A stretch of 64,000 nt of DNA, taken from assembly GCF_041146795.1 (NCBI RefSeq), contig NC_135179.1, forward strand, positions 29,231,047 to 29,295,046, in the 5' to 3' direction. Origin of the DNA: Maylandia zebra (taxonomy: Eukaryota > Chordata > Actinopteri > Cichliformes > Cichlidae). The notes under the pieces were generated by a model that was given only the letters and a program-made list of their open reading frames with translations, was not told where the DNA came from and did not search any database. This document shows, piece after piece, positions 35,701-39,835 of the stretch. The number at the start of each line of letters is the position of its first letter. Position 1 is the stretch's first letter. The translations under genes were made by a program, and so were the position numbers.

Positions 35701-38700
35701 TAACATGTGCTCTACTTTAGTGTATATATCAGGGAAAACAGGCGAGTTTATAAATGAACTGAATGGAACTGCTGCAGAAAATACCTTTCCAAACATTTTA
35801 GCTCCTTTTTCCAAAGGTTTAGTTCAGATGTTTGTTGTTGAGGGTTTTTTTTTAAAGGGATCCTATGAGATGTCCGTGTTGTGCTTAGTCTTTATAGTCT
35901 TTTCTATGTCCGCAGTTTGCAAAAGCTGAAGAGAGTAATGGTACCGAAGCGAAGGCAAAAAATGTTTTTACTGCTGCACCATATCTTACGGCAGTCCTTC
36001 CCAACAGAGCATACACACACTCTCTCCATCCTATCCACACAGAAACAGTCGTTTTATTTCCAGAATACACAAGTAGATTGTTTTTTGTTTGTTTTTTTTA
36101 GCTAGGCTTTTGAGTCCTACTACTCAGATTCACACAGTGTGATGAATCATTCGTGCGGCTGTGTAACATACAGCTCTGAAACGTAAAGTTTCTGTATGAG
36201 TCAAACAAATCTGGTGGCTTTCAAAAGCGCAGGTGATGAGTTCAGTTCTCCACTGAAAATGGGCTGACGGCAAAGTAAAGTGGGGGGAGATGTTTTTGGG
36301 TTTGTTTGGTTTTTTTATGGTTATTAAATTTTTTTAAAAAACACTAGTTTTTGCAACTTTAACAATCAATCATTTACTGTGGTTTATAGTGGTGTGTAGG
36401 TTGTGTGCTTCTGCTGCTGTAGTTATGTTGTTATGTTTAGTGTAAATGGAGTTTTAACATTAAAAAAAGGACACAAACATACCACAGATACATCTCGGGT
36501 GTTTCACTGAGTAAATTGGCAGAAATGACCGGAGCTTATTTGTATGATTTTTATATGTTTAACAAACATTTATATACACCTGTAGAGGTTGTCTGTCCTG
36601 TCAATGTTAACGTGACATTGTGCACATCAGTGTACAGACAAGCCAACAACATCAACATGCTGAAGGATGGGATGAAGATTGAAGCAACACATGTGAAGAA
36701 GAAGCAGCTCCATCAGTACCTGCCTCCTGAAGTGGTGCAGAAGAAAAAGAGAGTAAGATGTTGCTCTGCGATGCTTGTCTTGTTTTTAGGTTTGTTCTCC
36801 TCCTTAACAAATCTGTCCTCCCGCAGAGCATAGCAGAGTTGAACCGTAGTTCTAATGGTGGCAGCTCTAAGCGGCTCTCCCTCGACAGCAGTCACCTGGA
36901 CAGCTCCAGAGACACAGACTCAGGGACTCCCTTTAACTCCCCGCCCAGCAAACCCTCCAAGCCTACATCTGACACAGACGACAGGTATGATGCACTACTT
37001 GTGTGTAATTTTTACTGTTAGTGTTGTCCTTTTTTTCCTAATCCCCTTTTACCTCATGAATACAGTTGTCTTCAAATTGTTGTCATGTTTTCTGCTCTTC
37101 ATTTTGCAGCGTCAGTCCTCCTAAGCAGCTTTTTGTGGAGGGTTCTCCAGCACCTGTTGCAGCTGCTCCTCCTGCTGCTGCTCCTCCTGCTGCTGTTGCT
37201 GCTCCTCTTCCTGCTCCTGTTGCTGCTGCAGCTAAAGACCAGGGCATGTCCATCCCTGTTATTGGTACAAGTGAGTTAAAATAAAATCACACAGGGACTG
37301 TGTATAATGCATGTTTTACTTTGCTTCCTAACAGAAATGTCGATTTAAACTGCAATACTTTAATTAAGGAAATGCAGAAAGTGTTACTGTGCACTTGTTA
37401 AGTTGGTCTCTAACATGTCCTCTTTTGATTTCCCAACTCCATCACCTCCTCATCCTGAAGAACCTCCTCTTAAAGCAAAGCCTCCTTCCCCACCAGCCAG
37501 CAGCTCCATCACCAGCAGCACAAAGCCTACCGCCACCAGCAGCCCCAAAGAGGAGCCCAACGGCCTGGAGGACTCAGTCAACGGAGCTCCTTCCAAGAGA
37601 CCGCACTCGCCCACACAAGAGGACCCGGCCAAGAGGCCAAAAAACACAGACGTAAGCATTTGGACAACTTATTGACATATTTAAAAGAATGGACCAGATG
37701 CTGACACTGTTGTGTTTTGCTGCTGCAGGTGGTGTCAAATGATGACGCTGCCTTCAAAGAACCATATCCACCCTCGTCTGACCCCCAAACACACGGAGAA
37801 GCATCCAGCATTGTAGGTGTTACTGCTGCTGTGTCTGCCTCTGTTAACTGTTAATAATAAAGGATTTTCTCAGTAATGTAAAGCAATAAAAACAAATTAC
37901 ATTTTCTCTTCGTTAGACTTCTCTTGCTGGATCAAAGGCAAAGCCCATTCCAACCATCGATACCTCAAGAACACAAGCAAGTTCTTTATCTTTACTTGTT
38001 AAATCACTTATTAAAAGACTTGAGGTGATTTCTAACACTGCTGTTGTTCTTCCTCCCTCAGAGACTTCCCAGCATGGAGCTGCCTGATGCCTCCTCGCCT
38101 CTCCCTGCCAGTAACAGCTGTCGTGTTGTGAAAAATTCCATTAAACTGGCCCTCAACCGCCACAAGTGAGTTTCATCAGTTATTTGTATGTATGGAGTTT
38201 TTCTCCCATCACATTTAGTAGTTGAAAGTGCTGCTTTCACTGATGCAATTCTGATGTGCTGTATGTGTTGTCCTGCTTGTTTTTCAACGTGTCTGTGCAG
38301 TATCACACCTCCCAAGCCGCCCGTGTTTGAGGACGCCCTCACCACAGACGCTCCTGCTGCCAGCGAGGAAAAGGGCATGTCCATTCCTGTGATTGGCTCA
38401 AGTGAGTATTTGTTTCAATAGCTTCTTTTCATAAAACTGCACATCATTAATTAGAAATCAAATAAATTACAAGCAACAAACAAACGGCAGCGATGTCCAT
38501 AAGATTTTATTTTATTTTTTTTAATAAACCTGTAGTAAAGTCACTGCTGCGTCCTGTCAGTTATCAGAGACTATATTTACCTTTCTTGTTTACTTTAAAA
38601 GGACAAGAGATTAATCACCCTGCGATCTGGTCATTTACAGGTCGGCAGAACAATCCGACACCTGTTTGAAAAACACTCATGGCATACTGCTGCCTGTGGA

Positions 38701-39835: not shown

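Follow-up and report, generated by a model that had tools for sequence, protein, structure and literature searches.

A second pair of tail exons in the papolg gene of Maylandia zebra and its probable origin in an old tandem duplication

In the papolg gene of Maylandia zebra, the pair of exons e18 and e19 is found a second time, as e23 and e24, beyond e22. The best explanation that we can offer is an old tandem duplication, probably retained, which lengthens the papolg tail and whose two halves have since diverged; the long form of the protein and its functions are what we infer from it. The exon anatomy, the phases, the open frame and a pattern of coding constraint were all observed in the window, i.e. 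the whole stretch of 64,000 nucleotides that was analysed. The chain that we examined consists of the joined papolg exons from e10 (30754) to e24, with the exon numbering of the first-pass annotation.

Results

Identity of the gene

The protein encoded by e10-e24 matched the Pfam families PAP_central (3.5e-62) and PAP_RNA-bind (2.1e-33), the domains of PAPOLG. Compared with the PDB, the e17a-e24 part found its best match, of the two structures, in 4lt6 (PAPOLG; E 1.6e-14, query residues 1-40), the match to 1q78 (PAPOLA) being weaker (E 2.1e-6, query residues 1-42). For human PAPOLG we used a provisional sequence, residues 1-508 of which are identical to the PDB chain 4lt6 and the tail of which lies outside that chain. 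This sequence aligns with the window exon by exon from 24475 through the tail; e18-e22 scored 273 against the human tail, a score matched by 0 of 2000 shuffles, and the alignment contains the tail motifs in the order GxSIPVIG, KRx... and KNSIxLxLNR. Judged by these comparisons, the gene is closer to PAPOLG than to PAPOLA and is a PAPOLG orthologue. With vertebrate PAPOLG (poly(A) polymerase gamma, neo-PAP) it has in common the PAP_central and PAP_RNA-bind domains and a tail of the e18-e22 type, but it encodes 92 extra residues from the second e18-e19 pair. Downstream of papolg lies an exon at 54403-55302 that we take, by recognition, to be rel-like.

Anatomy and reading frame

The features of the tail region are collected in Table 1, in which module A denotes e18 and e23 and module B denotes e19 and e24.

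Table 1. Exons, stops and signals in the papolg tail region (window positions)
Feature	Position	Strand	Remarks
e18, module A, proximal copy, with Ala/Pro-rich run	37110..37270	+	AG acceptor; donor CAA/gtgagt; phase 2 to 1
e19, module B, proximal copy	37461..37651	+	phase 1 to 0; aligns with e24 (0/2000 shuffles)
e20, linker	37729..37812	+	open; phase 0 to 0
e21 (PIPTIDTSR), GC-AG donor	37917..37976	+	CAA/gcaagt; open; phase 0 to 0
e22, protein end in provisional human PAPOLG, here a strong donor	38062..38165	+	CAA/gtgagt, 9.15 bits
In-frame TGA within e22 donor GTGAGT	38167..38169	+	used only with intron 22 unspliced (...LNRHK stop)
e23, module A, distal copy (ITPPKPP...)	38301..38401	+	AG acceptor; donor CAA/gtgagt; phase 2 to 1
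Intron 23, 1258 bp	38402..39659	+	contains AATAAA 38461 and 38523, ATTAAA 39022, TTTA run 38784-38838
e24, module B, distal copy, plus ARIHIA and stop	39660..39835	+	acceptor tctctctgtag; open to TGA 39833-39835
Candidate poly(A) signal ATTAAA, long form	40461..40466	+	pattern only; TGTA 102 and 35 nt upstream

The e10-e24 chain is free of stops before its terminal TGA. Both e19 and e24 enter in phase 1, and e19 exits in phase 0, while e24 terminates. Counted over the chain from e10 onward, the long form comprises 618 residues as against 526, with 92 residues following ...LNRH; stopping at e22 would yield ...LNRHK and the TGA that follows. The first-pass annotation had placed copies of e18-e19 beyond e22, with matching phases, intact acceptors and frame, and junctions at 38165/38301 and 38401/39660, and all of this is borne out. 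Its proposal that the polymerase would hold both copies corresponds to an in-frame outcome, but it is one of several. The joins e17b-e23-e24 and e18-e24 are both open as well, and alternative tails therefore have to be considered. The join e19-e24 is not open, and e22-e24 is open in a different frame, without a stop inside e24.

Evidence for duplication

A repeat finder paired 37223-37276 with 38354-38407 (78%) and 37571-37650 with 39731-39810 (73%). When 36985-38300 was compared by blastn with 38166-53000, e18/e23 and e19/e24 were both matched at E=6e-8 each (36 nt at 89% and 71 nt at 75%), the other matches being the overlapping stretch itself and a remainder with E of at least 0.2. At the protein level, the real score was reached by none of 2000 shuffles for e19/e24 and by one of 2000 for e18/e23, and by 21 of 5000 when the first 16 residues of e18/e23 were taken alone; the latter pair is borderline because of the Ala/Pro run, which makes for a low-complexity exon. 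That run is encoded by a CTG-type repeat in e18 (37154-37233), which is missing from e23. As paralogous exons of equal phase within one gene, the two pairs are, on sequence grounds, a case of tandem exon duplication.

Downstream of e24, tblastn over 38166-53000 with e20-e22 and e17b returned noise only, the best e20-e22 match (E 0.24) being e24 itself. Our search of the animal's own genome covered 962 Mb in 63 contigs with only the best candidates scored, and among those no second papolg was found. The distal peptide gave two matches at E up to 10, namely itself and e19 (E 0.069); the e22-e23 peptide gave four, two of them in papolg and one each on contigs C4 (E 0.25) and C22 (E 3.1); and both matches of the e17a-e17b peptide were in papolg. 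With DNA 37110-38400 as the query there were 16 matches; apart from the query, these were 15 weak hits confined to query bases 39-135, which are the e18 Ala/Pro repeat. A 70-residue distal peptide produced 230 pattern matches in prokaryotic genome contigs and a 326-residue query produced 5 in viral contigs, of which 0 were confirmed in either case; the collections being prokaryotic and viral, these nulls carry no information on the date of the duplication.

Splice and poly(A) signals

AG acceptors are present at e18, e19, e23 and e24, and GT donors at e18, e19, e22 and e23. The donor CAA/gtgagt, common to e18, e22 and e23, scores 9.15 bits with a provisional donor matrix, and among the 193 GT sites in 37000-40500 just four, the e22 donor included, score at least as high as that of e22. 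The donors of e19 (5.95 bits), e20 (4.14) and e21 (2.64, a GC donor) are weaker. Over 16 positions, the pyrimidine content of the acceptor is 88% at e24 and 69% at e23. Besides the three signals within intron 23 and the ATTAAA past e24 (Table 1), the motif scan found further candidate poly(A) signals downstream of 40461, e.g. at 41920 and 42096.

Coding constraint

The codon comparison drew on 35 alignable codons, 11 from e18/e23 and 24 from e19/e24, chosen after the fact in one genome. They contain 24 differences, distributed as 6, 3 and 15 over codon positions 1, 2 and 3, with pS 0.483, pN 0.150, dS 0.775, dN 0.167 and a ratio of 0.215 (Fisher p 0.0013). Taken by block, p was 0.007 for e19/e24 and 0.078 for e18/e23, which alone is not significant. 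In the two other frames of the e19/e24 block, pS/pN was 0.27/0.22 and 0.18/0.29, from which the excess of silent changes can be assigned to the true frame. Choosing alignable blocks depresses both rates, but by itself carries no bias toward the true frame; the remaining parts of e19 and e24 align poorly.

We then compared these values with simulations (4000 runs each) in which proximal omega was 0.05 or 0.2 and dS was 0.775, 0.5 or 0.35. With a neutral distal copy, both observed values were reached with a frequency of 0.0015 (omega 0.05) and 0.0000 (omega 0.2) at dS 0.775, 0.0138 and 0.0050 at dS 0.5, and 0.0158 and 0.0090 at dS 0.35; with two constrained copies the frequencies were 0.67/0.43, 0.23/0.21 and 0.048/0.041 at the same dS values. 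At dS 0.35 a neutral distal copy would often show so low a pN, taken by itself (P 0.44 and 0.27), and the neutral and constrained hypotheses differ only three- to five-fold. Support for constraint is thus strong with dS near its estimate and weaker at half that dS. In a further simulation, which assumes an indel rate of 0.1 per substitution, frame and splice sites survived neutral change with a frequency of 0.19 at 0.05 substitutions per site and 0.003 at 0.15, and in 0 of 4000 runs did the frame and the splice dinucleotides survive 0.39 neutral substitutions per site with no frameshift. The codon pattern, which comes from a single genome and a selection of 35 codons, argues for a retained coding function of e23-e24, and the pair may also be a long-kept copy that lost its function recently. 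The word old, as used here, means a dS of 0.775 estimated from about 25 synonymous sites.

The less changed copy

Against the provisional human PAPOLG tail, e24 scored 84 (0 of 2000 shuffles as high) and e19 scored 60 (1 of 2000), and the resemblance of e24 runs along VxPP...SIPTxV.RxV, a part lost from e19. By this comparison e24 is the better-preserved member of the pair and not the degraded one, and to call it a copy of exon 19, as the first reading of the sequence did, is therefore misleading. Both exons look descended from one exon, of which the distal descendant seems less changed in its VxPP...SIPTxV.RxV half. The claim that the distal exon had lost its donor holds insofar as e24 has none at the place equivalent to that of e19, with a stop 8 codons on. 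The accompanying idea that it reads into former intron is unproven, and the residue next after the lost-donor position is K, as it is in the provisional human PAPOLG sequence.

Discussion

We think it probable that an old tandem duplication set a second e18-e19 pair downstream of papolg e22. Since e22 ends at a strong donor, transcripts spliced there would lose the stop after LNRHK and gain a second module A plus B, i.e. the 92 residues. The resulting protein would have two NLS-like KRPHSP...AKR-K modules (the likeness to an NLS was judged by eye), and the -NSIKLALNR motif, which is the last motif in the provisional human PAPOLG sequence, would turn internal. In PAPOLA, the corresponding segment functions as an NLS, and factors of 3'-end processing and of splicing bind to the last residues, the tail having roles in nuclear import and in the binding of CFIm25, U1A and U2AF65. 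By analogy, the long form may possess two import and regulatory segments. In the case of the B modules, the distal one would have retained the ancestral SIPTxV.RxV half and the proximal one would now be a Pro/Ser-rich linker, a divergence that suggests shared duties. We infer the long form to be the usual transcript, with modules that act in nuclear import and regulation and between which the ancestral roles have been shared out.

Alternatively, e23-e24 could replace e18-e22 by splicing, through either of the joins e17b-e23-e24 and e18-e24, so that the two B modules would never occur in one protein and one form would be without the -NSIKLALNR motif. Each of these joins preserves an open frame, and e24 is the exon closest to the presumed ancestral one, as expected if it did the whole job; against this, the strong e22 donor, phase-matched to e23, would have no use, and the copies lie downstream of e20-e22 instead of side by side. 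We regard such alternative tails as unlikely, though well worth keeping in mind. That the pair is a non-functional relic of exon duplication, spliced rarely or never, seems improbable given the codon pattern and the intact frame and splice sites, including the AG/GT/AG dinucleotides; the sole change seen in that direction is the lost distal donor, in that e24 is without one where e19 has it. The tblastn search, in which no e20-e22 copy stood out downstream, would suit a relic, as would a partial copy of e11 in the same gene. The latter is a 51-nt piece (33262-33312) of the intron that follows e13 and shares 88% identity with the middle of e11. As it starts mid-exon and no acceptor is seen, it resembles the remnant of a separate duplication within the gene; relics therefore do seem to arise in this gene.

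The direction of the change could also be reversed, the doubled tail being ancestral and lost by tetrapods. The greater likeness of e24 than of e19 to the human protein would fit such a history, and one genome cannot fix the polarity, but human PAPOLG presumably ends at the equivalent of e22, and the standing of e22 as the ancestral last exon is taken from that provisional human sequence only. We consider a loss in tetrapods more doubtful still than a relic. As for a chance resemblance of low-complexity Pro/Ser/Lys sequence, the single shuffle that reached the e18/e23 protein score is what speaks for it; with two matches in the same order, each at E=6e-8 and each between exons that agree in phase, it is hardly credible.

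A more elaborate version of the favoured old and retained duplication would have the tail respond to the enzyme's own pathway, by competition between predicted splicing and intronic 3'-end processing. U1 recognition and splicing would produce the doubled 92-residue tail with the LNR motif buried, whereas strong processing at the intronic AATAAA signals (38461 and 38523, just past e23) would produce the LNRHK-ended form or, alternatively, a short form reading through from e23 (GSSEYLFQ stop). The pathway in which the enzyme works would thus set its tail. This is speculative, and we think it rather unlikely.

Tandem exon duplication is well described (PMC9013439, PMC9741552), and it likewise involves serial homologous exons of equal phase; papolg differs in that a pair of exons was placed beyond what had been the last exon and would lengthen the C-terminus. 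The feedback through an intronic poly(A) site in CstF-77 (PMC3708835) offers a parallel, papolg too being a gene of 3'-end processing with candidate poly(A) signals in an intron. Such candidate signals could set the isoforms of papolg, of which only the signal motifs are seen here. Passages of PMC3287031 state that the entire PAPOLA C-terminal domain is conserved only in vertebrates and that, among the species of that study, a PAPOLG homologue was found only in mouse. In the open-access literature we found no report of a PAPOLG tail or exon duplication, and the annotation of other fishes may already contain these exons.

If the long form is made, there would be a fish lineage with a doubled regulatory tail on a poly(A) polymerase and its usual C-terminal motif buried, offering a natural test of the roles of that motif and of the NLS-like module, as well as a case in which two exon copies of a single gene have decayed in complementary ways. 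It may be that papolg is the main nuclear PAP of this fish. The two Pfam PAP families had at least 2 and at least 4 matches in the genome, and the only other PAP gene among them lies on contig C15 (about 3378343-3381114, minus strand; L013). This gene is divergent and has an NLS-like exon, KRKLLHRSETPSKKFKDDK. Because of its divergence, and because about 18.9 kb of downstream sequence, scanned for motifs, showed no tail motif, it was set aside as a possible outgroup in the analysis of the tail.

Within papolg, the donor of e21 (37977-37982) is of the GC type and belongs to an uncommon GC-AG intron. Searched as a possible inserted repeat against the genome DNA, with simple repeats skipped, intron 23 found itself alone. 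It contains a (TTTA) x 13.8 run with 100% matches at 38784-38838, which is a possible marker.
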